DNA of 64,000 nt from the NCBI GenBank assembly GCA_963971425.1, contig OZ020517.1, positions 19,372,904-19,436,903 on the forward strand, given 5' to 3'. The DNA comes from Bryoerythrophyllum caledonicum (lineage: Eukaryota; Streptophyta; Bryopsida; Pottiales; Pottiaceae). Shown here in pieces: positions 14,308 to 36,423 of this stretch; position 1 is the first letter of the stretch; the number at the start of each line of letters is the position of its first letter. Position numbers and translations under genes: made by a program. The notes below the pieces were generated by a model, which saw only the letters and a list, made by a program, of their open reading frames with translations, made no database searches and was not told the DNA's origin.

Positions 14308-15720
14308 TACATGGTAGTAGCCATTGTCGGACCGTGTTCTCCGGTGGGTTATTGTGAAAGGTACCAGCATTCATATAGATGAGGCATCTAGATTTACTAG
14401 AAGATACCAACAATTTTCTAATTTCCCATACTGCTTTGTCATGTCTTTTGACCATTAGTGCGTGAATGTGTGGTTGTTGACACTTAAGCAATACATGCAA
14501 CCAGGAGTCTAGTTCGGTGGAGTTGCAAATGGGACATGTAATGGAAGGGAATCTTTCTCGTCTGAAGAATAGTTGTTTTCGAGCATTTCCCATATATTGA
14601 CATGTTCTAAATTTTATAATACAAGTTTTTTGTGAGTGAGTGATAAGAAGGTTTGACCAGAATTCATTGGAAAGTTCCTTATCAATGTTTCTATTACCTG
14701 TCCATTGTTCTATGTTGGGAAAGTTTCTGGCCAATTCTGTTAAGTTGTTGTCTAAATCATATCTTTTAAGGTATTTGGGTAGGAATCTAATGGGGCCTTT
14801 GTCTGGGGTGTCATCCATGGAGGGCCATTCTTTCCATTGATAATAGTGTGGTGTGGGATGGGCATGTTCCAATGGTTCTCAGGCCTCTCTATGTTCTCTT
14901 TCTCTACCAATTTTTGCTAGTTCATCGGCTTTTTCATTCCCATCAATGCTCACATGAGCTCTGACTTTGTGTATTGATATGGGTTGGGTTCGTGCTTGTA
15001 ACATTTGCACCGTTGATGCTAAGATAGTTTTGTCAGGTGGCCATTGTGCATGGTTGGGTGTTGAATTTGTGTGTTTAGGAGGTATAATACATTGATGCAA
15101 TCTGTAAAAATGTATGCGGGCTCATATGGGTATTGAGCATTTAGGATGCGTAGTGTTTTATGTACAACCATCATTTTGGCTCTGATGATGTTTTGGAGTC
15201 CATGTAGTCTTTTGGCTATTTTGATGTTTTTTGGTGCATTATATATGCCATATCCGGCTTTTTCTCTGTGCCAGTGTCCTAGGCTTACTTTTTCAGGTTC
15301 TTTAAATGATTTGTCCATAAAGAAACAATATCCAGGGTTTAATTTAAGGGGTAGGTTTGTGTTGTAGGGTGGAAGTGGTGTTGAGATAATTGGAGGTGTT
15401 GTGTTTGGATTTGGGTATTTGGCTTGGGACCATTGTTTATGGCGATTAATTGTGATAGGCGTGGATGTGGGTGGGGCTAGATTGGCATATATTTGTTTGA
15501 TATGGAGGGTATTAGTCAATGATTTTAAATGTTCTATGATTATTTTAGTGCCGATTGTGTTGTTTTGATGATGTACGCATATTATTTGTTAAGTGGATTT
15601 TTCTTTCTGGGTTTTTTACCTAGTTCTTCTGGTATGGTTGGTTCAAAATATGTTATGGTATCTGTTGGTAGTGCATGCATGTCGGCGAAGGATGAGTAGA
15701 GAGTGAGCTCCGCATTTCGT
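14308..15720 (-). pseudogene. Retrotransposon 3' fragment, third copy, split by Tc1
   Basis: Nearly identical to 2205-3640. From high to low coordinates it has the RNase H frame (15019-15519) with FMDKSF, RAKMMVVH and FTDCIN, the frameshifted C-terminal RNase H piece (14879-15100), then a 193-codon frame (14291-14872) with FRTCQYMGNARKQLFF and CPICNSTELDSWLHVLLKC. This last frame is better preserved than in copy A. The second RNase H acidic residue is Lys, and the frameshift near 15030 is shared with the other copies, so it predates duplication. The 5' truncation is at the same place as in A and B. Confidence 0.78.
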
Positions 15721-16387: not shown

Positions 16388-16398
16388 GCTGGGAGAAG
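16388..16398. repeat. 11-bp target-site duplication, left side of MULE-1
   Basis: GCTGGGAGAAG lies immediately left of the element and is repeated exactly at 26643-26653 immediately right of it. An 11-bp duplication is within the 8-11 bp range of MULE superfamily elements. Confidence 0.9.
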
Positions 16399-16435
16399 TA
16401 GGATTGCTATCTTGTGAGCGGCGAGCGGTGAGCAC
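16399..16435 (+). repeat. MULE-1 left terminal inverted repeat
   Basis: The outer bases differ slightly from the right end; the shared core is GCTATCTTGTGAGCGG (16407-16422). The right counterpart occupies about 26594-26642 and contains a longer run of GCTCACCGCTC-type repeats. Confidence 0.85.
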
Positions 16436-17167
16436 TGAATTTTTGCATTTTTTTTGGTACTGTTTTTTGAAGAATTTGGGAAGGGTCGCCTATGGCCGTG
16501 GGTTCTATTAAGACTGTGTTGACATATGAAAAGAAAATTGAAATTTACGATGACAATGTAGTTGGACATATGGAAGTAGGAGTAGTTTAGGATTGATTGC
16601 AACAATTCAGTGCTCATTGGAAGGGACGCTTATGGGTGAGGATTTAGATATCAGGGTACTGCGACAAGTTAATAGACTATGAAATACAATAGAAAAAATT
16701 GAAGTTATATGGTTTAGGGTGGCAGGCAGTATCCATGTGATACCTAGTTCATACCCTTATAATACATGGGTGATATCCATGTAATACCTAGGTGGAAAAA
16801 ATTAGATACCATGGAGATACCCGTTGGGTCTGAACCACTCTAAATTGAAACAATCTAATTCTTAGCGAACGGTCGTTTAAATAAGAGCAATGCCTAAGAT
16901 ACAAAGCCTATAAACTTAGAGGACATGTAACCAAGTTACAAAGGTTTTTTATAATGAATCAAATTATAAATCGTAGATAGAACGATATCTTTTCATAAAG
17001 AAGCATGCCATACGATGTTTTACGTAAGACATACGTGAAAGGAAAGGGATTTTGACAGGAATGAAGATGATTCACGATGGGACAATATTGAAGACAACCA
17101 GCTGGTAGTGTGATGGTAAACAAAGCAACAAACCAATGCAGAGGAATCAAGATCCCTCCGCAAAAAG
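16436..17167. other. MULE-1 left subterminal region, no gene
   Basis: AT-rich. 16690-16830 contains phased GATACC/GGTATC motifs (for example GTGATACCTAG and GTAATACCTAGG) about 11 or 22 bp apart. The same segment is found inverted at about 35990-36110 in MULE-2, so it is part of the element. Confidence 0.6.
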
Positions 17168-20100
17168 TCAGCTGGAGTCAGTATCGTCAGAAAAACTATC
17201 ACTATGCTCCGAGCCACTAACGTAAGCCTCCCCATCTATGAACGGACATGTAGTAACTCTACGTGAGACTACCGTTTGAAGACGTGGAGGGGAATGTTGA
17301 GCTGCCATGGCGTCTGCAATCTGGGCATCCCAGGGATTCAAATGGAATCGTCGTGTGGGGCTCTTCACCTCCAACAACAATGAAGACAGCACTCCAACAT
17401 GAGTCCTATTCAATGATGCCATCAACGACGAAGGCCGACTGCACAAATTAAAGTCTCGTTAAGAATTTAAGCTTGAGACAATACTGGAACTGTAAACCGC
17501 ATTCCAAAACTGGAACCGAATCAGGGTAGGACTTACTCACAACGTCTCTTGGGGACGGTCTTCACATGTGGCTTGTCGTCATCAACCTCCAAGGGGCGCT
17601 TGCGAGAGCCCTCTGCCACCACCGGTGGCGGTGCTGACTCGACCTCAACAATGTTAGGGACCAAAGGAAGAAGGACTTCTTCCACCAACTCTCGGTCCTC
17701 CTCCAGTGCCAAAATGTGCCGCTTTAACGCCTTGCAGGCCTTAATAGACGCCCCTTCATTTAAAAAAAATCATACAATGTTAGCATTAGAAAGCGAAAGT
17801 AAAACAAAAGAATTTTGTAATGGAATGAACTAACCAGTAGATGCTGTGAGATCCAGGACAATGTCCTCCTATGCGCAGAGATCAATCAGAGCCTCCATGA
17901 GGTTCGTAGACTTTTCTCGCGCACCATGCCATGGTACGTCGCTATCCGCCCTCATAGTCAGCGTCTCTTGAGTAATAAGATTGGTCATGTGACCATCTGA
18001 AGACAGGTGAATCTCGTCTCTTTGCAGCTCCATCCTATCAAAGAATGAGAATGGAACCGCGAGATCCAGTTTCCTCACGAAGCACTTCACAAGGAAGCAC
18101 TTGTGAGTGCGCCCAGGGTGGCCATCGCGGAAAAATGGTAGCCCGTTGATGGCAAACTACTTTGTCTCCTTGACAAATCCCGCCCAATCGGCCCAGGTTG
18201 AAAGTTCATTGGAGATGAACTTCGAATCCGGGTAGAACACGATAAGCGGCGCCCCATCACGAAGCAACGCCCCAACCATTTCAAAGGCCCGGTAAATCCA
18301 ATGGAATTCTTTCTTCCCTCCGTCTAATAACCGGGTTGGAAGCTTGTTCCAATTCGGTACGTTGATGCCGCCATCAATGTCGAGAACCGGTAAATCCTCT
18401 GGTACGTCGAACATTACCACATCTGCCAAACCTAGAGTGCAATCCAGAGCCTCATGTCGCCGATGCCGTGAGCCCGAGTGCTCCTTCAAAAACTTGCAAA
18501 GCTCCTGCCAAGCCTCTGGTTCGTCATCCTCCACAACGACGCTGTCAAATAGAGACATAATGGAGAGGGCACTCTCACACATCACCTTCACAGCAGCAGA
18601 AGACTGAGGAAGATCAAATAACGGAATCGAATACACCGTCTGAGAGGGCTTCACATCGAAGGTAGAAGGACGGCTGCTAGCTGAGGGTGAAACGCCCATC
18701 GTCAAAGTCACCGCAGGAGGGACTGCGAATCCTCCAAATCCCCCCTATTGACTAAATAACTTCTGGGGCCCTTCCTTCGCCACCAACGCCGCGAACTCCT
18801 TGTACTTCTCCTTCGTCTCTTTCTTCTCCTTCTTCGAACTCTCCTTCTCCAGCCTAGCAGCCTCCCTCTCTTGTTCTTTGATTACTGCCTTAGCCGCTTT
18901 CTCAGCAACCTTGGCTTTGGCCTTCTCGGATTGCTCCTTAGACGCTCTCAATGGAGCCGCCAACAAGGGAAGGACGTTGCCAACCACAAGAGGAACCGCA
19001 ACGGACTTGCAGGCCACTCGAAGCTAGACCTCGTCTCCAGGTGTGGGATCCACCTCACGCATCTCCAAGTACCAGGGGCATTGGAGGAGGTGGTGCACAA
19101 AAAACCGACGCCGCTGAGTATCTGTGAAGATACAGTCTGGAGCCGAAGTATCTATCCACTTTGTGAAGCGGATGGGTAGGTCTCTGGCCACCAAGGATCC
19201 ATTGGCCACGAGCACCCTCCAAAGATACCGCATCGCTGCTCGCTTCAGAGCCTTCTCGCAACCGTCCTGCGCCATAAACTCCTCGCCCTTCGTGTAAGAG
19301 CCCCCCTTCCCAATGTAAGTAGAGAACACCTTAGTCCACATCGTCATGCTCTTTGCCTCAATCCATTTTCCAATGGCGAGAACAAGATTCGATAGCCCTT
19401 CAGTCTTAAGGACAATGTTGTCCTCAAGGAGAATCTCCGCGTAGAGCTTCTCAGACTCTTCCTCAAGCTGTAAAACAAAATCCACATAGTTAGGAATTCA
19501 TCATAGTACAATCATACAAAAAATCTGTGAATGTCAAGAAAGAGTGCACCTTACCCCAGCCCAGAACGTTGCCTTGTCAATCCAGCCACGAAGAACCTTA
19601 TCTGACGCTGGCGAGGCAGGGAAGTTATACTCCATCCTGCTGCTCTTGCTCATGGTCCACCACCTGCACCAGCGCGACTTGAACTTTGCAGCTATCCTTG
19701 CAGTGGCAATGAGCTGGAGTTTCTTGGGAGTCATCTCGGGCCGCACCTGGTAGACATCAAAGTGGCGATTCACCTAAATCACAATATCAACCATTAGAAT
19801 GGAATTTACAATGCCATGAGTTAGGAAATCAATATGGATGTTGTATAAATAAATAAAATTTATCCTACCTCTTTGGAGAAATCCTCCCCGTTAGCCGGGT
19901 TGGCAATTGCCAACATCCGAGTGAGCATGGTCTGGCACGTCGTCTTCTTCTTTTGCACAACTTCAGTGCAACGGCTCACCAACTCGGCGGCACTTCCACG
20001 CCGATTTTCACTAACACCCGTAACCAAGGTGTCCTTGAACTTTTGAATCTGCTCCTCTTGAGCAGCAATCAGGTCCCGTTGTGGCCAACATAAGGACGTG

Positions 20101-21100
20101 GAAAGTTATAAAATTTAATGAAGGAATATTAAAAATAGATATAAGCCAAGTGCTAGCTGGTCTCACACGATCATCACGTACCTCAAACATGAGCTTTACA
20201 AATGCTTCCAAGGTCATGTGATACCACTTTCGTTGTCCCTTCCTTGACCACTCAAGGACACTGACTTCGTAGTCTTCACCGCTGATGAGCCTTTTCAACT
20301 GCTCAAACTCTAAGAGACCGAAATGCTGAACACGCTTGATGTCGTGTGTGATGTGTTGCACGACGTGGTCAGCTTCTTTTTGCCTATGACAAAAGAATGT
20401 TACATTTTAGAAAATTTAAGTCCAATAGTATAAGCAACTGAAACAAACGAAGTTACGAGTATCTTAGTTCATGCATACCTATTCAAGTCAGTCATCACGT
20501 TGAGCAAGATGTGACGGTTCTCGATAGTCGGCTCGATAACCACGGCTCGTACTGGCACGTGAAAGGCAACATCGGATGGGTGCAGTTGGAAAATCGCCTC
20601 GGTCCAAGCCATGTGGCGATGATTACCATCCCACACAAAGAAGAACTTCTCCGAATACGCCGAGAACTCCGAACGAGTCTTCAACAGCTCCTCGAACTTC
20701 CGGTCCTCTTCTACCCAAAGCTCGGACCACATTGACATGTCTGCTGGTTGCACCCGCTTCTCCACAAGGGAGAAACTCTTCACTGAAACGTAAAAACATG
20801 CAAAACCACGCCGACATCCGTTGACAAACTCCCCCTTCAATTTCTCGACATCGCTCCGAAGAGGTAATCTAACCTCAGTCATGGGCACCATCTAGCAGAG
20901 CGGAATGGGGAGATCACCTGCGATAGAGCAGATACTGCTCTGTAGGATGTCGTAAGAGGTCCCACGGATGGACCTCCACAAAGACTGAAGTGTTGGAGCA
21001 AGCCCATGCTCATAAACAAATTCGTCCACGCTAGCGTCGTCCTCTACAATCTCAAGGTCCTCACCCGAAGAACTCGCCCTAGGTTCCAAAGCCTCAACCT
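17168..21100 (-). pseudogene. ParB-like domain plus beta-class DNA methyltransferase-like gene, MULE-1
   Basis: A multi-exon gene with GT-AG introns. Usable exons (high to low): to 20479; 20383-20182; about 20080-19869; 19773-19555; 19467 to about 17853; about 17757-17536; perhaps 17446-17168 with an acidic tail. The first exon has LPIPLC-x-MVPMTEVRLPLR and later FFFVWDGNHRHMAW, resembling the start and GNHR/GxxR box of ParB/sulfiredoxin-like folds. The middle is helical, then Lys/Glu-rich (18745-19017). The C-terminal part has LADVVMFDVPEDL, where a methyltransferase would have its DPPY-type motif IV, then LLRDGAPLIVFYP, VPWHGAREKS and VLDLTASTG, placed as motif I, followed by GASIKACKALKRHILALEED. 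Motif IV before motif I is the beta-class order. The motif IV residues look degenerate. In-frame TAGs at 20894, 19026, 18747, 18159 and 17871 disable it. An upstream exon exists but was not found. Domain naming is from recall of motifs. Confidence 0.6.
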
Positions 21101-21395
21101 GCAACCGTCATTCATTATAAACCAAAGTAAGATACTCAGTCCTGTTAAACAATAAAATGAAATAAACAAAATACTAAAACTAGAAATCCATGGCCCCCAG
21201 TCCATCCCACAGCTCACCTCACGAACACAAGCCACCTGAACCCCACCCCACGACCTCTCATGCACTCACTGACCACTCCCACATATTGCACATCCCGACA
21301 CACACGCTCTAAGTGTGATGACTTAACTAAACGTCCTAACCAACAAACTAGGTGGAAAACTCAACGCGCAACCAAGCGCTCGCAAGCTGGGGAAG

Positions 21396-21495
21396 GATTC
21401 TAAAGTTTTTTTGAAAATCAGTGACCCCTGAAAATGGCTTTCAGATCCGAAAGCCATTTTCAGGGGTCACTGATTTTCGTAAAAAATCTTAAATC
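21396..21495. repeat. About 100-bp palindrome 1, AGATCC centre
   Basis: Symmetry is around 21445/21446. The arms pair for about 50 bp with few mismatches, including AATGGCTTTC against GAAAGCCATT and CAGTGACCCCTGAAAA against TTTTCAGGGGTCACTG. The centre is AGATCC rather than GGATCC. Confidence 0.95.
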
Positions 21496-21957
21496 CCCTC
21501 CCTGCAAGCGAGTTCATTGGCGCGCGCGCTCTTACTAGTTCAAATCATTTAGTTTCAAGCAAGCGCTACTGTACAAATTCCACGCATGCATGCCCCTGCT
21601 CGACCCCAGGCACTACAGTTCATGCACTCTCACACGAGCACTCAGCCCACCTCACGTACATAGTCCCCCCGAACCCCACCCCACAACCTCACATGCACTC
21701 ACATTCAGACTCACATACCCAGCCTCACACTCACTCTCCCTCGTCATCAGCCCCCATCCCACGACTACTCACACCTCACCAACTCACAAGTGCACAAGAA
21801 TATACTCTCCACGACCTCTCATGCACTCACAGTTCAGTCCCACACATTGCACATCCCGAAACGCCCGATCAAGAGTTTGATGACATCTATGAAGGTCCTA
21901 TCCAACAAGCCTAGCAAAAAACTCAACGCGCGACCAAGAGCTCGCAAGCCGGGGAAG

Positions 21958-22057
21958 GAATCTAAATTTTTTACGAAAATCAGTGACCCCTGAAAACGGC
22001 TTTCGAATCCGAAAGCCATTTTCAGGGATCACTGATTTTCGTAAAAAATCTTAAATC
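21958..22057. repeat. About 100-bp palindrome 2, GAATCC centre
   Basis: Symmetry is around 22007/22008, with the same arm sequence as palindrome 1 (CAGTGACCCCTGAAAA facing TTTTCAGGGATCACTG). It lies 562 bp from palindrome 1. Confidence 0.95.
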
Positions 22058-22462
22058 ACCTCCCTGCAAGCGAGTTCTTTGGCGCACGCACTCTCACCAG
22101 TTAAAAACACTTAGTTTCCAACAAGCGCTACTGTAAGAATTCCAAGTTAGCATGCCCCTCGACCCCAGGCACTAAAAAGCGTGCAGTCTCACACGAGCAC
22201 TCAGCCCACTTCACGCACACAGTCCACCGAACCCATCCCCACGACCTCACATGCACTCACAATCAGATTCACCCTCACACCTCACCCACTCACAAGAGCA
22301 CCAGAATATTCTCATCACGACCTCCCATACACTCAAAGACCAGTCCCATACATTGCACATTCCGACAAGACTGATCGAAGTGTGATGACATCAACGAAGG
22401 TCCTAACCATCAAGCCTCGTGGAAAACTCATTGCACGACCAAGAGCTCGCTAGGAGGGGAAG

Positions 22463-22562
22463 GATTCTAAATTTTTTATGAAAATCAGTGACCCTTGAAA
22501 ATGGCTTTCGGATCCGAAAGCCGTTTTCAGAGGTCACTGATTTTCATAAAAAAATTCAAATC
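22463..22562. repeat. About 100-bp palindrome 3, GGATCC centre
   Basis: Symmetry is around 22512/22513; the core GCTTTCGGATCCGAAAGC is a perfect 18-bp palindrome. It lies 505 bp from palindrome 2. Confidence 0.95.
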
Positions 22563-23501
22563 CCCTCCCTGCTCGCCAGCTTTTTGACGCGCGCGCTCTC
22601 ACAACATCAAAACACTTTGTTTCCAGCAAGCGCTACTGTATGATTTCCACGCAAGCATGCCCCTCCTCGACCCTAGGCTCTCCAAATCATGCAGTCTCGC
22701 AAGAGCACTCAGGCCTCCTCACGTACACAGTCCACCCGAATCGCACCCCACGACCACACAAGCACACACCACAGCTGCACCGTCACCCAGCCTCACACTC
22801 ACTCTCCCTCGTCAATAGACCCCATCCCACGACTACTCACACCTCACCCACTCACAAGCGCAGAAGGAAATCCTCTCAACGACCTCTCATGCACCCAATA
22901 GACCAGTCCCACACATTGCACATCCAGACTCTAGTTCACTTAGCGTGATGACTTCTATATTGGTCGTGAGCAGCAAGAAACAACAAGGACATATCTGGAG
23001 TCGTTCTTCCATCTTCTTCAGTGCCTCCTCCGCTGACCTCGAACAACCTCGCTCACAGTCCGCGAACAAAATCTGCACCAGAAATCAGACTCGTTGGATT
23101 TAGATAATCCACCACGAGGTAAAATCGGAGCAAGTGAATTCACGATTTAAGGTTAGGCAGAGTGAGACGACCTCGTCCGAGGAAACAAGTTGAGCAATTT
23201 TGGCTGCACACAATGCAGTGAGATGCACGTGAACTTACAACCAGTCTCCCAAAACTCACGTACAAAGTGCACACAGGGTCAAAACCCTATCCCGAGCGTA
23301 ACCCAAGTTGATCCCATGAAGTAAGTTCTCTTCGCACGAGCAGTACTGCTGAAGCAAAGAAGGAAGGAACGAACCTAGTTCTCGAGTTCTTTTTGACTGG
23401 TAGGAGCTCATTGACCCTCACGAACCACGACAAAACAAGTCACTTATGATCTAAGAACCGTTTTAGGGTCTTACCCGACCCTGCATGGTGACATACCTGA
23501 T

Positions 23502-25888
23502 TTGGTGGGTCCCCTCCCGGTTCGAGTAATTTATCAGCGAGGTCCTCTGCGTCTCTTCGATGAGCCGATACTCCAATACCAGATGCCTTTGATGAGGAAC
23601 CGTTTCCAACCAATGTGGGCCGTGATGGATTTACACGGCTCCCATATTCTTCACTTGAGTCACTATTTTGGCAGTCAGACTGGCCTTTACTGCCTTCTGA
23701 TCCCTTATCTACTTGCAATGAGGTCTCTGCGGTATTGGATCTATGATACATTCTCACTCTCTTATCTTCTTTTTGGTGTAGTATTTCTTTTTAAAATGTC
23801 TGTCAACCGATGTGGAAGTGGTGTAGATCTCGTTAGCCGTATGCAACCCGGGAATGACCTTGAAGATTGTTGGTTGATGTTTGATCATGTCAAACGAGTC
23901 AAGGATTGGACTACCATGGCATGTCATGTGTACGACAGCAAGTACTGTAAGGTCATGACAATTGCCATGTGCGACATGCAATCCAAAGATGCTCAAGCGC
24001 AGGAGTTGTTCTGGGAGAATCTAAATGATACTATGAAACAACATGGCCTAGAAGACGTGAACTTCAAAGGCTTCATGGCTGACAGTGCTGGTGCAAATTG
24101 GCATGCCGTCCCCCGAGTTTATGGCAGCGGCGACAAGGACAAGCCCATGGATAACAAAGAACGGACATGTTTATTTCATTGGACAAAGTGTCTCCAGCGT
24201 GCGACCTCCAGAAGCATTTTTCCTGGCTTCCAAGAGCAACATATTGCCCTCTGTAAGATCTGGAAAAATGCGAAGACCCATGACGAGGTTGAAGCTCAAT
24301 ACAATGTCATTCGAGCGTGGTGGATGTCGTCTGGTGCGAAAACCGAAATCGGACGTCGTGCTCTCGAGGATTGGATGGCATTCTGGCACTTCCGTTATCA
24401 ACAATGGGGAGGCACAATGCAGCTTGTAAGTGGTCTTCATGCTCTATATAGTTTACTAGCGATTAGATTCTTAAAGAGTGATTAGCCCATATCTAATGAT
24501 GATTGTTGCGTTTCCTCATAATCTCACGCTTGACGAGAGGGTTGACATGCCTTCCTACAACCTTGCCGAAACAGTCCACAACCGCTGGCTCCAACAATCC
24601 GGGAACACAATGACCTGTCTATACGCAGCAACCGTAGACGACCTTGTCCGTGCTTTCATGCAGATTACTTTGTATCGAGCATGGTTGAAGGGCGGCGTGT
24701 CGGTAAAAGGTCCGGACAAAGGTACACTTCGGTTGCAGACGGCACAACGTTTGGGTGATCCTAAACTCATAGCTGATGCTGTTAGGAACTTTCCTAGAGC
24801 TGAGGATTTACTAACCAGGACATGCGGTTTAGAAGGTGCGGAGATTTTTGGATCCACGAAGCGCAAGCTTGACATGCCACCCGGGTCGTCCCACAATTCC
24901 CACCGGTCCGATACGGTGAACTATTCAATTCCCCGTGATGGTAAACAGGTGACTCGGGCTCGCATCGAGGAGGCCCTTGGCGGACACGACTCTGGTGTCT
25001 AGCATACAACATCCGTTCTCGAGACGGACTGTGATCCGTCTAAGTGGCATATTGCTCGGCTCCCCAAAAAGTCAGCTCAAAAATGCCAAGCATTGCAGGC
25101 CGACTCTGGGGAGCCGTGCAACACCAAAGTTGCAGGTGGAAGTCATGGAACTCCCGCCCCCACCTATTCGGATATGAAGAAGGATTATAGGTCGCCACGC
25201 AATGTGTCTGCGGAGTTCTGGTTTTGTCTAGACGATGTAGGCCGTTGTGTAAAGGGGTCGAAGAAAGCGTTCATGATGGATTGGCCAGCAGTTCCAATAT
25301 CGTGGCCTGTGAAACTTGGCACAAATTTAACTGTGCAGGAGGTTTTAGCATTGGAGGAAGCAGGTTTCCAATTACAACAGCGTGGAGCTCTTTCACCACA
25401 AAGACAATTCCAAGTGTCTATGGACATGCCTCTTCCGCGTTCTCACTTCCCCATTCCAGCCAATCCCAATTCTCACCACAGCTTTTGGAATGGCTACGCG
25501 ATTCGTAGAACAACAGATGTTCCCACAATTGATCAACGCAACAAGTGGTCAAGCGCAACTCTTATGAATAACTGCTACGTCTCGAACGTGTTTGCCATAC
25601 CGTATCCGGGATGGGGATGCGTTATTCCTCTTGACACGGGGAAGGAGAAGTCCTATTGTGTCACGTTTACGGACCTCCCTGGATGTTCATGCCCTGATTT
25701 TTTGAAGATGCAATCCGAAGCCCTGGAAAAAAAAGGGGCAATGGAAGTATTGCAAGCATGTGTATTACATCTTACGTTACATGTGTAAGATGGACTACAA
25801 AGAAGACTTCTTCATGCATGCTCCAAGCTACAGCTTCAACGAAGTTATGCGCATTCTCGAGTTTGCCAACATCACCAAACAAGCGTGA
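23502..25888 (+). pseudogene. MULE-type transposase with SWIM zinc finger, MULE-1
   Basis: Exon-like frame 23502-24426 contains VYDSKYCKVMTIAMCDMQSK and FMADSAGANWHAV, the conserved acidic stretches of this transposase family, then CLFHWTKCLQ. A donor (CTTGTAAGTGG, after 24426) follows; the matching acceptor seen in MULE-2 has decayed here near 24515. The second part (to 25888) carries CDPSKWHIARLPKK, a long middle, and near the C-terminus CSCPDFLKM, the first half of a SWIM finger (CxC...CxH). The second half, YCKHVYYILRYMC, is readable only after a frameshift in the A8 run near 25727-25734, and then the frame runs to a TGA at 25888. An in-frame TAG lies at 25000-25002. SWIM fingers are typical of MuDR/FAR1-type transposases. 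The protein would have mobilised the element; this copy is dead. Confidence 0.75.
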
Positions 25889-26593
25889 GCTATGCGTTCA
25901 AGTCGTCTATATCAGAATTAACAATGTTTCTAGGCTGCTCAAGTGAAGCATCTTCTAGACACCCACAAACCGTCATTGATTTCATGACTATAGTTGGATG
26001 GTCATGAATTCAATTAATATATTTCGTTATGTTATCATGGAGCAGTAGATTCCCGTACTTAGTGTGTTATACAGTTTGAAGTGGACGATTTGTGTAGGTG
26101 AAGTGCATGGAATGTAAATCCAATGATTTCTGTGCAATTCGTAGTTAAAAGTTAATATCCCTGTAAATCGAACCCTAAACGAGTGAAATATCCACTTAAT
26201 ACCTAGGTGATACCCGTTGTATCAAAAGATCAATATTATCATAAATTAGCAAGTATTGTCCAAAATTGTCCGCTTTGTATGATACTCTACCACGACGCCA
26301 AAACCCTAAACCTAAGCAATATGTGCTTTGTTTCCTAATATGGCAATTTACAAATGTAGGGTTTCCAAATAAAAAATTGTGACATACCTTTAAACTAAAA
26401 CAAGGAACTCTAAAAGGCCGAAATAAAGGAAAAGCATGCAATTTTGCAGTATACCACGGCTATAGGGCATTTACTAAAATTAGATGTTTTTGGAAAATAT
26501 GTCACCGAAATTTGATGATCTGCTGAAAAAACCAACCAAATCAATTTTTTCCCAAAAAAACGGCAAAAAAATTCAAGATTTTAGGATTTTTTC
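25889..26593. other. MULE-1 right subterminal region, no gene
   Basis: AT-rich. Its last part (about 26300-26590) matches 29190-29480 inverted in MULE-2, including AAATTTGATGATCTGCTGAA. One GGTATC-type cluster is at 26190-26220. Confidence 0.6.
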
Positions 26594-26642
26594 TGCTCAC
26601 CGCTCGCTGCTCACTGCTCACCGCTCACAAGATAGCGTCGCT
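26594..26642 (-). repeat. MULE-1 right terminal inverted repeat
   Basis: Read from the outside in: AGCGACGCTATCTTGTGAG, then repeated GCGGTGAGCA-type blocks. Followed directly by the 11-bp duplication GCTGGGAGAAG at 26643-26653. Confidence 0.88.
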
Positions 26643-28430
26643 GCTGGGAGAAGAAACGACATACATTACCGTAAGCATTCAGCTACCCGAAGAAAGCTAA
26701 AGACACGACACCCAATTCAAGGGTAGGTTGAGCGCCCCAAACCACACCTGACATCACATGGTACAACCGAGCAAGCCCGAAAATCATACAACCAGGCTAT
26801 CCCTCAACCTTTTATCTCCCTCTTAAACTATCACCTACATGATTGGTCCTTTACATACTTACATCCCACTTCAGCAACTACAGAACTAACTGGAATATCA
26901 AGTATTAGCAAGCATCACAATAGCCAATGCAAGGCAATTGCTAACATGACCAAACTACAACACCCAAGAGGAGCAACTCGAAGCAACAACAACCCGAGGC
27001 CAGCAAATACACACAGATTTCTGCTGTGTTCGGCGGCAGCGTGCACTGAATTCAATACCAAGACATCAACCCCTGATCTCAATGTACAACAACAACAAGA
27101 CAGGAGCACAAGCTATTCATCACACGATCCAGCCCCCATTCCACAAATAACCCCTCATCCACCCTCTCTCTTTGCATGCAATAACTACGTTCTATCTGTT
27201 ATCTCAAATTACACATCTCATATTATCACAAAGTCTACACTAAATTCACTAAGCACACACATACTCTATAGTTGCACACTTCTCCCTAGAATCAAACCTA
27301 ACCCTATAGCTGCAGAGACCAATATACGAAAGATTTGCAGCTCGAGAAACATACGCTGCCGCATAAGCCGCTCGCATCCTCCCCGTACACTTTACAGAGA
27401 AGACACCTGCCCACAACAACAAACACATCAAGATATTGTCACAAGAGTGGTGATTGGGACTAGTAAGAACGACCAAATCCCAACAGGAAGAGAGGAAAGT
27501 CACGACGCAAGCTTACCTTGTAAATTCAGCTCAGCCGAACATGGCAATAGCCAGAGAATCTCCACATGTCCCACAGTCGGCGAGCAACAAAGCAGACAGG
27601 GAACAACTCGCAGGACCAGTGCCGAGAGGAAAAGCCTATAGTTGTAGCATGTCAAGGACGACCGCATCTGCCGTCATGTCCCTGGTACAAGTATACAACA
27701 ACTAAATAAGAGTACAACACTTAGAAAATCTCATAGCCCAGGAGTCAAAGGACAACAACTCAAGCGAAGCGAAGTACCCTGACAATGTAGACCTGACGTG
27801 CAGCAGCTCAACTGGAGAAGAACACGTAGAAAGCGACATATAAAACTAGAAACAGAGGAGCCCACTATCCACATCAAAAGCGAACACACAAACTCGAGTA
27901 GCCCCAAAGGCAGCAAGCAGCAATCCACGAGAAGGAGATCACCTCGAAGACTCCGCAGGGGAGAACAACACAAGGAGAAAAGAGTCTCCCAGAGCCAAAA
28001 ATCCGACGCACAACAGAAAGAATGGAGAGCAACTGGCAGACCTAAAGTTGGTGTGGATAGCCTGCACCTACACCAAGAAGCGGTGAAACACATTAGTCCT
28101 CAAAGACTTGGTACCAGCGTGCTGCAGATTAGGTGGAGCAGACTTCCCCGAATACCCAAAATCGGCAAGCAGCAGATCAAACGGAGAAGAACACGTCAAG
28201 CGCGACTCACAAAAGTAGGAAACGACGTACCCGCTGTCTACACCACAAGAAAACGCACATACACTGGTAGTTTTGAAGACGGTGAGAAGCAGCCCAAGAA
28301 CAGGAGGTTAGCCATCCACGACCCTCAACTCCAAAGCCCACAGATCCCAGAAGAGCACCAATTCCAAACCCAAGCCCAGCTCACTCAAGACTCATCTCAC
28401 TATACTAAAGCAGTTAGGTAAGCCTCAACC
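26643..28430 (+). repeat. Basic low-complexity repeat, third copy continued
   Basis: Continuation of the block interrupted at 16398, aligned with 4309-5940 and with 37740-38920. Plus-strand frames 26946-27641 and 27798-28421 are Lys/Arg/Gln-rich and not joined. Similarity to the other blocks ends near 28310, where this copy passes into the ORF1-like frame rather than into a Tc1 remnant. Confidence 0.6.
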
Positions 28431-29008: not shown

Positions 29009-29145
29009 CACAAAGATACCCTTAAGGTAATCGTTCCCACAGAGAATCACCGAGAACTACAACGAGTAACAACAAGCCAAGGTCTGTACAATGTCAAGTA
29101 TACAATAGATACATCAAAAGAAAGGAGAGAAGGGTTTAGATCACC

Positions 29146-29983
29146 AGCGACGCTATCTTGTGAGCAGTAAGCAGCGAGCGGCGAGCCGTGAGCATAAAAA
29201 ATCCTAAAATCTTGAATTTTTTGTCATTTTTTTGGGAAAAAATTGAAATTCGAGGTTTTTTCAGCAGATCATCAAATTTGGTGACATATTTTTCAAAAAC
29301 TTCTAATTTTAGAAAATACCCTATTGCCGTGGTATACTGCGAAATTGCATGTTTTTCCTTTATTTCGGTCTTTTAGAGTTCCTGTTTTAATTGAAAGGTG
29401 TGTCACATTTATTTTCGATAAGTGGTACAACTGTGAAATTTGGCCTTAAATGTTGCAAAATTTACTAAATTAAGAAAGTACCCTATAGTTGTGGATACAT
29501 TGACAATTGATAGTTTTTTTTCCATGTTCTTATGCATGTTATGGAATTTTAATCTTTGTGCTTTTTTTTCTTTTGAGGATTACATTTGTACTTTTATATA
29601 GGATGGCAATTTATAAAACATAACCTTCTAATGAAGTGCTAGAGTACTAGATGTGGAGTAAGATAATTTATTTTTTGAAGCAATAACATAAGATGTTTCT
29701 ATAGAAATACCAACGGTCTGTGAAAACCTTAAACTACCGGGTGATGGTGAAAGTTTTCCAACTTCTCCAAATGGAAAGGTGTAGGGTTCAAATCCCCGTT
29801 GTGGTATGTTGGCTCTATCTAACGGAACTGTTGGAAGTTGCCAACAAAACAACTCCTCTGCGGTTTGAAAAAAAAACAAAAATAAATAAACTACCACCTA
29901 CAATCACGCAGTTGGAATATTGACACCACATCAGCTATCTAGATATAGAAAGAGTATTAAAATTTATGCCGTGACGCACATCA
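29146..29983. repeat. MULE-2 left terminal repeat and subterminal region
   Basis: 29146-29195 is the terminal repeat with GAGCAGTAAGCAGCGAGCGG-type subrepeats. 29196-29480 matches the MULE-1 right subterminal region. About 29480-29980 is AT-rich with no recognised gene and has no clear MULE-1 counterpart. Confidence 0.65.
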
Positions 29984-31030
29984 TCATGCGATTTCTGCAA
30001 TATTAGCAAGCTCTAGTATGCGTATAACTTCATTGAAGCTGTAGCTTGGAGCATGCATGAACAGGTCTTTTTTGTAGTCCAGTTTATACAAGTAACGTAA
30101 GATGTAGTACACATGCTTACAATATTTCCATTGCCCCTTCCTTCCCAACGCCTCTGCTAACATCTTCAAGAAATCTAGGCACTACATGCGCGGTAGCCTG
30201 TGATGAGAGCGACGCTATCTCATGAACGGTGAGCGGCAAGTGGCGAGTGGCGCATTTCTCATCAATGTGAGCATACAATGTTTGGCATATTTGCGTCAAT
30301 TTCTTTGGCACGTGAACAATAAACCACTTTGATGGATCACATACCAATTCCACACTGAAGTTGTGTGTAGAACTGTTGAATCTAGTCCATTGAAGGCCTC
30401 TTCTGTACTTGTTCGAGTCACTCTTGTTCCATCTTATGGATTAGAGAAATTCACCGTATCCAATTAATGAAAATTGTGGCCTGACATGAGTGGCATGTCA
30501 AGCTTGGTTTTGGTAGACTTAAAGATCTCCGCACGTTTTAGTCTGCATGTCTTGGAAGGGCCTAGGAAAGTGTTGAACAACTTTTGCAATAAATCTGGAG
30601 TCACCTGAACATTGTATGGATCGCTACCAAAGCGTACCTATGTTGTGACCTTTTTCATCGTGCCATGTTTTAACCAGGCTCAATATGAAGTGATTTTTGT
30701 GAAAGCTCGGATGATATTGTCCATGGTAGCCGCATACAAACACCTCATGGTGGTTTCAAATTTTACGAGGCAATGATAATAGAATGTATCTAAAAGGCTG
30801 AAAGATGGCATGCCTACTCTTTCATCAAGCGTGAGATCTTGCGAGGACACAATAATTCTTATATAAATTCTAATTACATTTCTAAATAGTTTTTAATTCC
30901 AAAATGTACAAGGCATTAAGAGTACTTACAAGTTGCATTGTGCACTCCCATTGTCTATATTGCCATCCAATCCTCAAGAGCAAGACGCTTGCTCTCGGCA
31001 GTAGCACCCAAAGATAACCACCACCTTTAT
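29984..31030 (-). pseudogene. SWIM-finger transposase remnant, MULE-2
   Basis: The C-terminal frame 29984-30169 is cleaner than in MULE-1: DFLKMLAEALGRKGQWKYCKHVYYILRYL, with no frameshift, so it confirms the SWIM CxH half. Upstream fragments align with MULE-1: CDPSKWFIVHVPKK near 30340, a GHNF / DTVNFS-like piece near 30460-30500, and an exon end near 30960-31030 (ALEDWMA then CNL). A GT-AG intron is visible between about 30840 and 30930. The transposase core with the catalytic acidic residues is deleted, and a terminal-repeat-like 47-bp segment sits inside it at 30208-30254. Confidence 0.7.
30208..30254 (+). repeat. Isolated MULE terminal-repeat segment inside the transposase remnant
   Basis: AGCGACGCTATCTCATGAAC followed by GGTGAGCGGCAAGTGGCGAG-like sequence matches the element end but lies within the transposase reading frame, just upstream of the CLDFLKM segment. 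It marks either a second element end left by deletion or a footprint of a nested insertion. Confidence 0.75.
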
Positions 31031-32148
31031 ATAACTTAGTATTGTGCTTCAGCCTCTTCTTGTGTCTTGGACTCTTTCCATACCTTGCACATGGGAATGT
31101 GTTGACCCTGGGTACTTGAGAGAGAATGTTATTGTTGGTGCCTTGTTGCAGGCATATAGTTCAATGGAATAAAAATGTCCATTTTTTATATTCTATAGGC
31201 ACGTCCTTATTGCTACTACCATCAAACTGCTAGATGGCGTGCTAGCTAAGAAGCCTTAAATATGAAATTAAACCCAAAAATTTATTCAAAAATCACAACT
31301 ATCTTAGTTATCATCAAGACACAAAATTTGTTTGCCTCTGTTGTTGCTCTGTTCAAATAATCTGAGTCAATTTATCAATTCCATTTTTTGAATTTTTTTT
31401 CCCAGATGAGCATACATGTATTTTCAACTCTTTTCAAAATTTTGAGTGGCCCAAAGAAAGCCTTTGGATCCAAAACTCCCCTTTGAGCTAGTGAAAAACT
31501 TGGAAATTTTAGAAACATTGTTTGATAAACAAAAATGAATATGAAAATAAATCCAAAAAATTCTTCAAAAATAATATTCATCTTTACTTTCTTACCTTCC
31601 ACCATCGAGTAAATTTTCTTTATAAAATATAAATTATATTTTGGGATTTTCTTTTGTTGCTAGATTGAGATCTTTCAAGTTTTTTGTGAACTTTTGAGAG
31701 CCTCCAAAATGGCTTTCGGATCCGAAAGCCATATTTGGGGCACTCCAAAACTTTTCAAAAATTAAAAATCATGCCTTGATTTCCGAAAAATAATTTTTAA
31801 AAATAGAAAATAGAAAACATAGAGTTTGTCTTGCTTCTGTTGTTGTTTCTTTTCAAGTAAATAAGTAAACCTCATAACTTTATTTTTTGAATATGGTATT
31901 TTTCCGTATGAGCATACATGTATTTTCAACTCTTTTCAAAATTTTGAGTGGCCCAAAGAAAGCCTTTGGATCCAAAACTCCCCTTTGAGCTAGTGAAAAA
32001 CTTGGAAATTTTGGAAACATTGTTTGATAAACAAAAATGAATATGAAAATAAATCCAAAAAATTCTTCAAAAATAATATTCATCTTCACTTTCTTACCAT
32101 GTAACTAATTTTTGGTAAAAATTCAAGGATCTCATCTAGAGGGGGGGA

Positions 32149-32248
32149 GAATCGTGAATTTTTACCAAAATCACTGACCCCTGATTTTGGCTTTTGGATC
32201 CGAAAGCCATTTTCAGGGGTCACTAATTTTGGTAAAAATTCAAGGATC
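32149..32248. repeat. About 100-bp palindrome, GGATCC centre, MULE-2
   Basis: Symmetry is around 32198/32199, with TTTTACCAAAATCACTGACC on the left facing GGTCACTAATTTTGGTAAAA on the right. Confidence 0.93.
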
Positions 32249-32265
32249 TCATCCAGAGGGGGGGA

Positions 32266-32365
32266 GAATCGTGAATTTTTACCAAAATCAGTGACCCTTG
32301 ATTTTGGCTTTCGGATCCGAAAGCCATTTTCAGGGTCACTGATTTTGATAAAAAATTGAGAATCC
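32266..32365. repeat. About 100-bp palindrome, GGATCC centre, MULE-2
   Basis: Symmetry is around 32315/32316 with core GCTTTCGGATCCGAAAGC, only 117 bp from its neighbour. Confidence 0.93.
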
Positions 32366-32778
32366 TCTCCCACCTAGAGAGTTCTTCGACGCGCGTGTAT
32401 AATTCTTCTTTCTTTGACGGTCATGATCATGAGATCGTGTTCACGATTTCTATATTTCTCTCTACCTGATCCTCATGAGAGTGCTGAGGGAGTGCAGATG
32501 CGAGAGGTGGTGAGAGTGGGGAGTGTGGGTGGGAGGGTGGTGAGTGTGTGAGGGGAGGGTGGGGAGTGTGAGTGGGAGGCTGGAGAGTGTGGGTGGGGTG
32601 GGACGTGAGTGTGTGTGTGGGGAGGTCCACGGGAGTTATTGTGTAGTGAATGAGTAATATGTGAGGTCTGGGGTGGGGAGGGGGTACGATGTGATATATA
32701 CTCTGCCTCGACTGCTTAGAAGTATGTGAGTCTTGTTGTTAAGAGAGCGCACGCGAAGGATCTCATCCAGCAGGGGGG

Positions 32779-32878
32779 AGAATCGTGAATTTTTCCAAAA
32801 TCAGTGACCCCTGATTTTGGCTTTCGGATCCAAAAGCCATTTTTAGAGGTCATTGATTTTGATAAAAAATTGAGAATC
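32779..32878. repeat. About 100-bp palindrome, GGATCC centre, MULE-2
   Basis: Symmetry is around 32828/32829, core GCTTTCGGATCCAAAAGC with one mismatch, 513 bp from the previous one. Confidence 0.93.
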
Positions 32879-33299
32879 CTCTCCCAGCTAGAGAGTTTTT
32901 CGAGGTGCGCGCATATTTCTTCTTCCTTTGACGGTCACGATCATGAGATTGTGTTCACGATTTCTATATTTCTCTCTGCCTGATCCTCGTGAGAGTGCTG
33001 AGGGAGTCCAGATGCGAGAGGTGGTGAGGGTGGGGAGTGTGGGTGGGAGGCTGGGGAGAGTGGGTGGAGTGGGAAGTAGTGAGTAAGTGGCTTGAGAGGG
33101 CTAGGCTGGGGTGGGGGAGGGACATTGCTTTATTTCGCCCGAAGTTTTTTTCATGACCATTTTGGCCATACTTGTTGGATTGCATGAGCAGGAATTTAGT
33201 TTACTCGTGTGTTCTAGATTTAATTCTTAATTCATTTCAAGTTTCTAGTTCAGGTGGATGCAATTTGTTGCTTCGGTTTCTCATGCATACTTATTGCAG

Positions 33300-35863
33300 G
33301 TTGAGAGTTTGGGACCTACAACAACTTCTTCACGTGAGGACCTTGAGATTATGGAGGACAAAGCACGCGTCACTGAAATTGTTGATGAGCATGGGCTGGC
33401 TCCTACACTTCAATCTTTGCGGAGGTCCATCCGTGGGACCTCATACGACATCCTACAGAGCAGCATCTGCTCTTTTGCTGGTGATCTCCCAATTCGTCTC
33501 TGCCGGATGGTGCCCATGAGTGAGGTGAGGTTACCTCTTAGAAGTGATGTCGAGAAATTGAAGGGGGAGTTCGTCAATGGGTATCGGCCTAGTTCTGCAT
33601 GTTTTTATGTGTCAGTGAAGAGTTTCTCCCTTGTCGAGAAGCGGATGCAACCACTAGACAGGTCAACGTGGTCTAAGCTTTGGATTGAAGAGGACCGGAA
33701 GTTCGAGGAGTTGTTGAAGACTCGACCGGAGTACTCGGCGTTTTCAGAGAAGTTCTTCTTCGAGCCATATGGCAATCATCGCCATATGGCTTGGACCGAG
33801 GTGATTTCCCAACGACACCCATCCGATGTCACCTTTCACATGCCCGTTAGAGCCGTGGTTATCGAGCCGACTATCGAGAACCGACACATCTTGCTCACCG
33901 TAATGACCGACTTGAACAGGTATGCTTGAACTTAGATACTCTGAACTTTGTTTGTTTCAGTTGCTTTTACTATTGTACTTCATTTAATGACACTGAAATA
34001 TTCTTTTGTCGTAGGCAAAAAGAATCAGATCAAGTTGTGCAACACCTCACACACAACATAAAGCGTGTTCAGCATTTTGGCCTCTTAGAGTTTGAGTAGT
34101 TGAAGGGGCTCATCAACGATGAAGATTATGAACTGAGTGTCCTTGAGTGGTCAAAGAAGGGACAACAAAAGTGGTATCATATGACTCTCGAAGCATTTGT
34201 GAAGCTCATGTATGAGGTACATAATGATCCCTTTGTCCAGGTAGCACTTGCCATTCCTCTCCTTTTAATATTCCAATTCAAAATATTAAAACTGATCACG
34301 ACCTTATGTTGTCCACAACGGGACCTGATTGTTGTTCAAGAGGAGCAGATCCAAAAATTTAAGGACAACTTGGTCACGGGTGTTAGTGACGATCGGCGTG
34401 GAAGTGCTGCAGAGTTGGTGAGCCGTTGCACTGAAGCTGTGTAAAAGAAGAAGACGACTTGCCAGACCGTGCTCACTCGGATGTTGGCAATTGCCAATCC
34501 GGCTAACGGGGAGGATTTCTTCAAAGAGATAGGATAAATGTTTTTCTCCATTCCTTTTCATATTGAATTTCTAACTTTTGCCCTTGTAAATTCCACTCTA
34601 ATTCTTGATATTGTGATGTAGGTGAATCGTCACTTTGATGTTTACCAGGTGCGGCCCAAGATGACGTCCAAAAAACTCCAGCTCATCGCCACGGCTTGGG
34701 TAGCTGCGAAGTTCAAGTCGCGCTAGTGCAGGTGGTAGAACATGAGCAAAGGCAGCATAATGGAGTATAACTTCCCCGCGTCGCCAGCATCAGATAAGGT
34801 TATTCGTGGCTGGATTGACAAGGCAACGTTCTGGGCTGGGGTAAGATCCAATCTTTCTTGACATTCACATCTTTTTTGTATGATTGTTCTATGATCATTT
34901 CCTAACTATGTGGATTTCGTTTTACAGCTAGAAGAAGAGTCTGAGAAGCTCTACGCAGAGATTCTCTTTGAGGAAAACATTGTCCTTAAGACTGAAGGGC
35001 TTCCGAATCCCATCCCCTCCATTGGAAAATGGATTGAGGCAAAGAGCATGACGTTGTGGACTAAAGTGTTTTCTACTCACATTGGAAAGGGAGGCTCCTA
35101 CACAAAGAACGAGGAGTTTATGGCGCATGACGATTGCGAGAAGGTCATGAAGCGAGCAGTGATGCGATATTTTTGGAGAGTGCTCGTGGCCCATGGAGCC
35201 TTGTTAGTCGGAGATCTACCCATCCGTTTCACAAAGTGGATAGATACTTTGCTCCCAAGTGTATCTTCACAGATCTATACTTAGAGGCGTCGATTTTTTG
35301 TGCACCACCTCCTCCAATGCCTGTGGTACTTGGAGATGCGGGAGGTGAATCCCACCCCTGGAGACGAGGTTCAACTACAAGTGGCCTGCGAATCCATTGC
35401 GGTCCCTCATGTTTCCAGCAGCGTACTTCCCTTGTTGGCGGCTCCGTTGGCAGCGTTTGAGGAGCAATTCGAGAAGGCCAAAGCCAAGGCTGTTGAGAAA
35501 GCGGCTACGGCAGTAATTAAGGAACATGAGAGGGGGGTTGCTAGGCTAGAGAAGGAGAGTTCAAAGAAGGAGAAGAAAGAGACGAAGGAGAGGTACAGGG
35601 AGTTCGCGGTGTTGGTGGCGAAGGAGGGGCCTCAAAAGTTGTTTACTCAACTAGAGGGATTTGGAGGATTTGCAGTCCCTCCAGCGGTGACACTGACGAT
35701 GGGCGTTTCACCCTCAACTAGCGACCGACCTTCTACATGTCCCATCGTGAGTCATCTTCATTCATGTCAAAATCCCATTCTTTTCACGTATGTCTATCAA
35801 AAAACATCGTATGTCATGCTGCATGATGAGAAGATTTCGTTCTATCTACGATTAAGTATATGA
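33300..35863 (+). pseudogene. ParB-like/methyltransferase gene, MULE-2 copy, C-terminus deleted
   Basis: Exons parallel MULE-1 exactly: 33300-33919, 34015-34216 (202 bp in both), about 34318-34528, 34622-34840 (219 bp in both) and 34928 onward. The first exon is open and contains LPIRLCRMVPMSEVRLPLR, but the box reads FFFEPYGNHRHMAW, losing the Asp of WDGNHR. Stops: TAG at 34097 (CAG in copy 1), TAA at 34442 (CAA), two TAG near 34725-34737 (both TGG), TAG at 35282 (CAG). The donor after 34528 is AT instead of GT. At about 35738 the sequence jumps from PSTFDV-coding to the equivalent of about 17078 in MULE-1, deleting motifs IV to I. The remaining 35740-35863 frame is non-homologous read-through. 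Confidence 0.65.
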
Positions 35864-36423
35864 TTAATTATAAATATCCTTTGTAACCAAGCTGCATGTC
35901 TTCTGAGTTTACATGCTTTGTATCTTAGGCATTGCTTTTTTTTAAACAACCGTAGTCAAAGAATTGGAATGTTTCAATTTAGAGTGGTTCGTACACAACG
36001 GATATCTCCATGGTATCTACTTTTTATCCCCTAGGTATTACATGGATATCATCAAGGTATTATAAGGGTATGAACTACGTATCACATGGATACTGCCTGC
36101 CACCCTAAACCATATAAATTTGGTTTTTTCCATTGTATTTCCTAGTCTATTACCTTGTCGCAGTACCCTGAACTCTAAATCCTCACCCGTAAACGTCCCT
36201 TCCAATGTCAATTGAATTGTTGCAATCAATCCTAAACTACTCATAATTCCATATGTCCAAGCCCATTGTCGTCGTAAATTTCTGTTTATTTTTCATATGT
36301 CAACACAGTTTAAATAGAACCCACGGCCATAGGCGACCCTTTCCAAATTCATCAAAAAACACTACCAAAAAAATTTTAAAAATTCAGTGCTCTACGCTCG
36401 CCGCTCACAAGATAGCAATCCTA
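35864..36423. other. MULE-2 right subterminal region and terminal repeat
   Basis: Inverted match to 16399-17000. Contains the phased GGTATC/GATATC cluster (about 35990-36110) and the terminal repeat ending at 36423. No gene is seen. Confidence 0.65.

Follow-up and report, generated by a model that had tools for sequence, protein, structure and literature searches.

Why should a moss transposon carry, beside its transposase, a second gene in which a ParB-like domain is joined to a methyltransferase-like one? The question is raised by an element in a 64,000-nucleotide stretch of the Bryoerythrophyllum caledonicum genome (assembly GCA_963971425.1, contig OZ020517.1, 19,372,904 to 19,436,903 of the forward strand), called the window here and used for all positions below. 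An earlier note, made from the letters alone, described the element as a Mutator-like element (MULE) with a SWIM-finger transposase and a divergent second gene, here gene 2, whose product it thought might mark, protect or regulate the transposon's DNA or be a domesticated DNA-binding factor. Our best answer, to which we give a probability of roughly 0.57, is that gene 2 is an integral and selected part of a MULE-type family and would encode a DNA-binding pseudo-methyltransferase whose target is the DNA of the element itself. This reading starts from what is established here on anatomy, folds, family size, linkage to the transposase, purifying selection, a conserved palindrome array and the loss of the DPPY motif, and goes on from there to DNA binding, to the protein that would read the palindrome and to an anti-silencing or helper role, all of which we infer.

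Gene 2 occupies 23751 to 17533 of the minus strand, with seven exons that give 1,119 codons plus a stop. The exon limits were set by aligning 11 copies of the element for frames and splice sites.

23497..23751, minus strand: exon 1, 85 codons from an ATG start, low complexity
21099-23496, minus strand: intron 1
20479..21098, minus strand: exon 2 (also exon A), ParB/sulfiredoxin-fold domain with WDGNHRHMAW
20182..20383, minus strand: exon 3, from frame and splice sites in the copies
19869..20078, minus strand: exon 4, from frame and splice sites in the copies, acceptor mutated in the window copy
19555..19773, minus strand: exon 5, from frame and splice sites in the copies
17835..19467, minus strand: exon 6, K- and E-rich linker, then the methyltransferase-fold domain
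17533..17753, minus strand: exon 7, remainder of the motif I region (ASIKACKALKRHILALEEDRELV), tail and stop

The copy alignment bears out the multi-exon gene that had been proposed, and its GNHR box is located in exon 2 (WDGNHRHMAW, 20633-20604). DVPED begins at 18408 and LDLTASTG at 17856, the latter reading on across the last intron into ASIKACKALKRHILALEEDRELV. In the modelled protein of 1,119 residues a low-complexity N-terminus comes first and a ParB/sulfiredoxin (Srx) superfamily domain second; an uncharacterised middle region and a linker of charged residues then lead to the permuted amino-methyltransferase fold at the C-terminus. Of the 12 copies tested for exon 1, 11 have it in frame, with one stop each in two of them, and the diverged copy C12 yields no match. 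The window copy holds five premature TAG codons, and its acceptor ahead of exon 4 is broken where nine of ten other copies have AG; from exon A onward, two other copies contain only a single stop. When the window copy is compared with copies C3_345 and C11_234, C>T or G>A make up 49 of its 84 specific changes, as decay of methylated cytosines would predict.

The earlier note had named structure comparison as the check on its claim of two joined domains, and this comparison recovers both the ParB/Srx fold and the methyltransferase fold in models of the gene 2 protein. The methyltransferase fold is circularly permuted, with motif IV (DVPED) ahead of motif I (LDLTASTG) in coding order, which is the beta-class order that had been read from the sequence. 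The Pfam family N6_N4_Mtase matches this part at an E-value of 1.9e-5, and the protein homologues listed number 27 for the C-terminal part (40-72% identical, E at most 2.3e-47) and 38 for the ParB exon (35-75% identical, E at most 3.8e-22); because of this match and of so many homologues at such E-values we do not regard the domains as chance resemblances. Some of these homologues may come from the same species or close kin. Contigs of three identical sizes (5331, 289902 and 219580) occur in both homologue lists, which suggests that the two exons sit together in the homologues too. The whole spliced protein found no match among 7,991 scored candidates even though its parts did, probably because the database holds single-exon open reading frames. 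In viral contigs there were 18 and 74 pattern matches, with none confirmed as a relative.

The catalytic motifs are altered. Beta-class N6/N4 amino-methyltransferases carry the pattern (D/N/S)PP(Y/F/W) at motif IV, and when 28 sequences were aligned (the 27 homologues and one copy) this pattern failed in every one of the 27 rows with residues there, none of which reads DPPY, SPPY or NPPY. The motif is instead DVPE in 18 rows, DVPK in three, DIPE in two, and DVHE, NVLE, DMFE and DMPE in one each, with the aspartate retained in 26 of the 27. Motif I reads LDLTASTG, LDLTAGTG and variants of these, which do not follow the DPFxGSG type of S-adenosylmethionine loop, its glycines being kept in part. 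In the ParB exon WDGNHR is retained in 33 of the 36 rows with residues (37 aligned), and it fits what we take to be the GxxR-type nucleotide box of the ParB/Srx superfamily.

Whether such a gene belongs to the element can be judged from selection and from linkage. Estimates by the simple Nei-Gojobori method, with stops and gaps skipped, give a ratio of nonsynonymous to synonymous divergence (dN/dS) of 0.13-0.25 for gene 2 in 26 of 28 pairs drawn from eight copies, and we therefore regard the gene as a selected part of the element. The remaining two pairs stand at 0.42 and 0.70; the higher value comes from comparing the window copy with its closest relative and agrees with decay after insertion. 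Divergence of the gene 2 introns is about equal to dS, and when the coding parts are taken separately in five pairs the ratio is 0.08-0.22 for the ParB part and 0.13-0.23 for the methyltransferase part.

For linkage, the genome was searched with the ParB exon, where the best 150 of 1,826 first-look candidates were scored, and with the transposase, where the best 77 of 5,103 were. At 63 of these best 77 transposase loci a ParB exon is present no more than 40 kb upstream, on the opposite strand, and at 56 of the 63 it lies within 10.1 kb, compared with a mean of 0.4 and a maximum of 3 linked loci in 200 random shifts. The earlier note had asked whether the gene is ever linked to the transposase, and it is evidently tied to it. 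The domesticated DNA-binding factor that it offered as another option is unlikely, judging from copy number and linkage. We set aside a domesticated host gene so far as the scored places reach, as the best 150 of the 1,826 ParB places are relatives 66-100% identical and 37 of the closest 40 adjoin a transposase.

Both genes also travel together in a second lineage. At least 22 ParB places match residues 20-206 of the query at 73-75% identity, and nine of them share one score. An element of this lineage on C7 (G000:C7:27588500-27604500; L061, L062) is about 12.6 kb long, holds both genes in open frames and is bounded by the left end CAGGATTGCTAGTTTGTGAGC, the right end GCTCACAAACTAGCGTCGTT and the duplication GGGTATTGCG; every exon from ParB to the tail lies within an open frame, the splice sites not having been individually checked. 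Its SWIM transposase is 43% identical to that of the window family over 588 columns. A relative on C1 has only the first 6,794 bp in common with it, at 99.5% identity, and looks truncated. The nine equal scores, and the 99.5% identity over 6.8 kb of the two that were read, suggest that this lineage spread recently.

What the gene 2 protein might act on is pointed to by its own first intron, where the window copy holds an array of repeated palindromes.

21248..22929: tandem repeats of intron 1, unit about 530 bp
21439..21452: palindrome site 1, 14 bp, TTTCAGATCCGAAA, one mismatch, forming the middle of a 70-80-bp palindrome
22001..22014: palindrome site 2, 14 bp, TTTCGAATCCGAAA, one mismatch
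22506..22519: palindrome site 3, 14 bp, TTTCGGATCCGAAA, exact

Throughout the window family, intron 1 contains repeats of about 505-565 bp with one palindrome of 70-80 bp in each. About 70 bp of this long palindrome are 94-99% alike in the copies C10_50, C3_134 and C8_245, and the longer alignments around it are only 81-87% alike. The 14-bp core TTTCGGATCCGAAA, spaced at about 520 bp in the window family, recurs in the other two lineages compared inside wholly different repeats. C12 has 12 sites at a spacing of 64 bp, and C7 has four exact sites at 116-118 bp plus three looser ones, the ends of intron 1 being approximate in both. Allowing 2 mismatches, the core is present in 15 of 15 copies, with 1-12 sites in each and an exact site in 14. 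At up to one mismatch the 64-kb window has seven sites against an expectation of 0.00, all inside the two family copies that it holds, and in the other 46.5 kb of the window the core is absent even within 2 mismatches. In four copies from three lineages the sites are confined to the intron 1 region, and the core with its sub-words makes up the only words of nine or more bases common to those four regions; Markov controls gave at most four shared 9-mers and no shared 10-mers.

Because the short palindrome persists while the repeats around it turn over, we read TTTCGGATCCGAAA as a binding site, and its iteration looks like a candidate binding-site array. Given such an array in its own intron, action of the gene 2 protein on the DNA of the element is plausible. 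The arms, TTTC...GAAA, presumably resemble parS and the Noc site. The 70-80-bp palindrome was also considered as a universal target and rejected, as it is found at the cut-off in 10 of 14 copies and only the 14-bp core is common to all; C12 has a different long palindrome, and C7, W2 and C4_66 have none of the window type at the cut-off. BLAST matches on both strands do show decayed forms of the long palindrome in C4_66, W2 and C12. A separate observation is that the arms of the long palindrome (in 21248-22929 and in intron 1 of other copies) differ between units yet remain complementary, TTTTTACGAAAATC facing GATTTTCGTAAAAATT and TTTTAACAAAAATC facing GATTTTTGTTAAAATT.

Taken together, we propose that the gene 2 protein may be a DNA-binding accessory protein with altered catalytic motifs, a pseudo-methyltransferase, which would act on the element's own DNA, probably by way of the 14-bp palindrome repeated in intron 1. 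The outcome would be either a sequence-specific relief of host silencing, as with VANC, or the regulation or assistance of transposition. Several points weigh against this. A full-length undamaged gene 2 occurs in none of the 11 window-type copies aligned, and C4_66 has just one palindrome site, which is degenerate. The ParB models of Pfam match none of 37 sequences at E up to 1 (DndB matches two, best E 0.087), the best Foldseek E-value in PDB for the ParB model is 0.011, and the methyltransferase model has a mean predicted local distance difference test score (pLDDT) of 55.7. No helix-turn-helix or dedicated DNA-binding domain was identified in the protein, none having been sought specifically and the middle not having been modelled. 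By identity band, a scored transposase partner stands beside 37/40, 20/74 and 7/36 of the best 150 ParB places, the places without one being partly uninformative since the list of partners was the best 77 of 5,103 candidates. Lastly, the gene 2 protein is one candidate for reading the palindrome, the transposase and a host factor being others.

This last point opens the way to the alternative that we take most seriously and still hold to be unlikely, namely that reading the array falls to the transposase or to some host factor and that gene 2 encodes a non-binding helper of transposition, a role also proposed for MudrB, in which the ParB/Srx domain binds nucleotide or nicks DNA. The divergent arrangement, the selection and the long association would suit any accessory role, and nicking of single-stranded DNA is ascribed to ParB/Srx proteins (PMC12839542). 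However, all four copies tested have the array within the intron 1 region of the gene, and iterated palindromes lying in cis to a gene for a ParB-fold protein make an obvious pair with it, though both arguments fall short of proof. Within our preferred reading of a self-acting pseudo-methyltransferase, the boldest form would be a transposon with its own ParB-like loader and parS-like array, in which the gene 2 protein recognises TTTCGGATCCGAAA, present 1-12 times in intron 1, and then clamps or spreads so as to keep the element transcribable, unsilenced or organised for transposition; we regard this form as speculative and rather doubtful.

Another alternative is that the protein remains active as a DNA methyltransferase despite the change in motif IV and marks the element with N6-methyladenine or N4-methylcytosine (4mC) to shield or regulate it. 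This agrees with the retained fold and motif order, with LDLTAGTG at motif I in some homologues and with the motif IV aspartate. It is set back as a leading explanation by the motif itself, since all 27 rows lack DPPY and none has SPPY or NPPY instead. In the bdelloid rotifer N4CMT, changing the catalytic Ser and Tyr of SPPY to give APPA abolished 4mC addition, as PMC8885841 reports, and because of this and of the absence of DPPY we would not expect amino-methyl transfer by the gene 2 protein. The DNA methylation raised by the earlier note is thus quite improbable. N4CMT is also a host gene, which has SPPY and deposits 4mC at transposons (PMC8885841), whereas gene 2 is transposon-borne and without SPPY. 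That gene 2 is passive captured cargo seems to us very improbable indeed; MULEs are prone to acquire fragments of host genes according to PMC6446971, but gene 2 is complete, has several exons and is kept by purifying selection in different subfamilies, it stands also beside a transposase lineage only 43% identical, and contigs of the same three sizes recur between its two homologue lists.

The element itself is recognised from its ends and its duplication. In the window it is a decayed copy with an internal deletion, and a second copy lies close by.

16389..16398: left target-site duplication CTGGGAGAAG, 10 bp, from the sequence and the same pattern in other copies
16399..26643: transposon copy, 10,245 bp, decayed and internally deleted, from ends and duplication
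16399..16434, plus strand: left terminal inverted repeat TAGGATTGCTATCTTGTGAGC, then 7-bp repeats; other copies read CAGGATT
23799..25885, plus strand: what is left of the SWIM-type transposase gene after deletion of its 5' part
26607..26643, minus strand: right terminal inverted repeat, ending ...GCTCACAAGATAGCGTCGCTG, from the sequence and other copies
26644..26653: right target-site duplication CTGGGAGAAG, from the sequence and the same pattern in other copies
29145..36423, minus strand (opposite to the first copy): second, more deleted family copy, both ends retained

The matched ends and the two divergent genes of the earlier description are both present, the left and right inverted repeats being identical at 27 of 30 bases counted from GCTATC. 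The duplication also stands, with its length revised from 11 to 10 bp. The left 1 kb of the element matches 40 places at 89-100% in this 437-Mb genome (42 rows, two of them short), and ten further copies were picked from these matches and read, making 11 with the window copy. Both ends lie within the sequence read in eight of the 11, and all eight have a direct repeat at the ends. In the seven other than the window copy this is 10 bp in six and 11 bp in one, at near-constant distances from the ends, so we take 10 bp as the family's length and the window copy's duplication is best read as CTGGGAGAAG, the additional G belonging to the right end of the element. The right end is not recognisable in the 14.1 kb read for C3_345, and the reads of C8_245 and C3_134 stop short of where it could show. 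The 7-bp repeats GTGAGCG/GCGAGCG run through both ends (16399-16434 and 26607-26643), their number varying among copies. A gap of 2.5 kb at about 23768-23780 includes the 5' part of the transposase gene, and we call it a deletion because 2.5-5.0 kb are present at this point in seven of seven copies read across. What remains of that gene has an in-frame TAG at 25000-25002 and a frameshift near 25730, inside the CxC..CxH finger.

The class of the element is MULE-type as far as can be judged from its ends, duplication, finger pattern and a sub-threshold Transposase_mut match. A duplication of 8-11 bp beside terminal inverted repeats, a MULE trait, is found in all eight two-ended copies and in the C7 element, the second window copy being without it. 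By eye, the C-terminal SWIM finger CxC..CxH is CSCPDF...YCKH in C11 (L026), CTCPDF...YCKH in C12 and CSCEDF...YCKH in C7. Pfam gave no significant MULE or SWIM match to the transposase pieces, so the call of a MULE with a SWIM transposase holds for ends, duplication and finger pattern and lacks a significant family match. This lack would suit another superfamily of SWIM-finger DNA transposons, of which Kyakuja-Dileera-Zisupton is an example, as would the weakness of Transposase_mut (E 0.012-0.15, below the cut-off). However, a 10-bp duplication, inverted ends and the finger suit MULEs, and Transposase_mut is the sole family to match more than one of the eight pieces scanned (three of eight); a non-MULE origin is improbable, and it would concern the class and not gene 2.

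The second window copy has an unbroken ParB exon at 33300-33917 (plus strand). Missing from it are the 3' half of exon 6, all of exon 7 and the greater part of the transposase; both of its ends are present, and its flanks show no target duplication. Outside the left end of the first copy, an open frame at 15019-15588 (minus strand) resembles, by eye, a retroelement RNase H domain.

Comparison with known systems helps to place gene 2. VANDAL elements of Arabidopsis, in the MULE class, likewise have a second protein, VANC, which to our knowledge is not of ParB or methyltransferase fold. Within the elements that encode them, VANC proteins bind noncoding regions made of tandem repeats (PMC10398659). 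For the gene 2 protein such binding and self-targeting are predictions. In MuDR of maize mudrA and mudrB are convergent, whereas the two genes of the present element are divergent. MuDR resembles it in being a Mutator element, in its SWIM transposase and in the second open reading frame that part of its group has (1 or 2 in all), as tabulated in PMC6446971; the folds of gene 2 are listed for no MULE group in that table.

The viral fold matches to the ParB-part model include a 479-residue 'DNA methylase' of Mycobacterium phage Vincenzo (E 0.012), which suggests the same pairing of folds. Gene 2 differs from phage ParB-domain methylases in being eukaryotic, with 1,119 codons spread over seven exons, and in its long middle region and non-canonical motif IV; tblastn against phage records gave no match to gene 2 at E up to 1. 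The ParB-parS and Noc-NBS systems are alike in combining a ParB fold with iterated short palindromes in cis, a likeness of sequence; their ParA partner, helix-turn-helix and C-terminal dimer domain were not found here, none having been sought. In the literature searched we found no earlier report of a ParB-methyltransferase gene in such a transposon. If our reading is true, a fusion of bacterial or phage type would have been recruited as the standing second gene of a large transposon family, along with an iterated palindrome that outlasts the repeats surrounding it, which would give Mutator-type elements a new class of accessory protein and the ParB/Srx fold a eukaryotic use outside sulfiredoxin. 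It would also provide a protein and a site, directly testable as a pair, for asking how elements of this kind evade host chromatin or make use of it.

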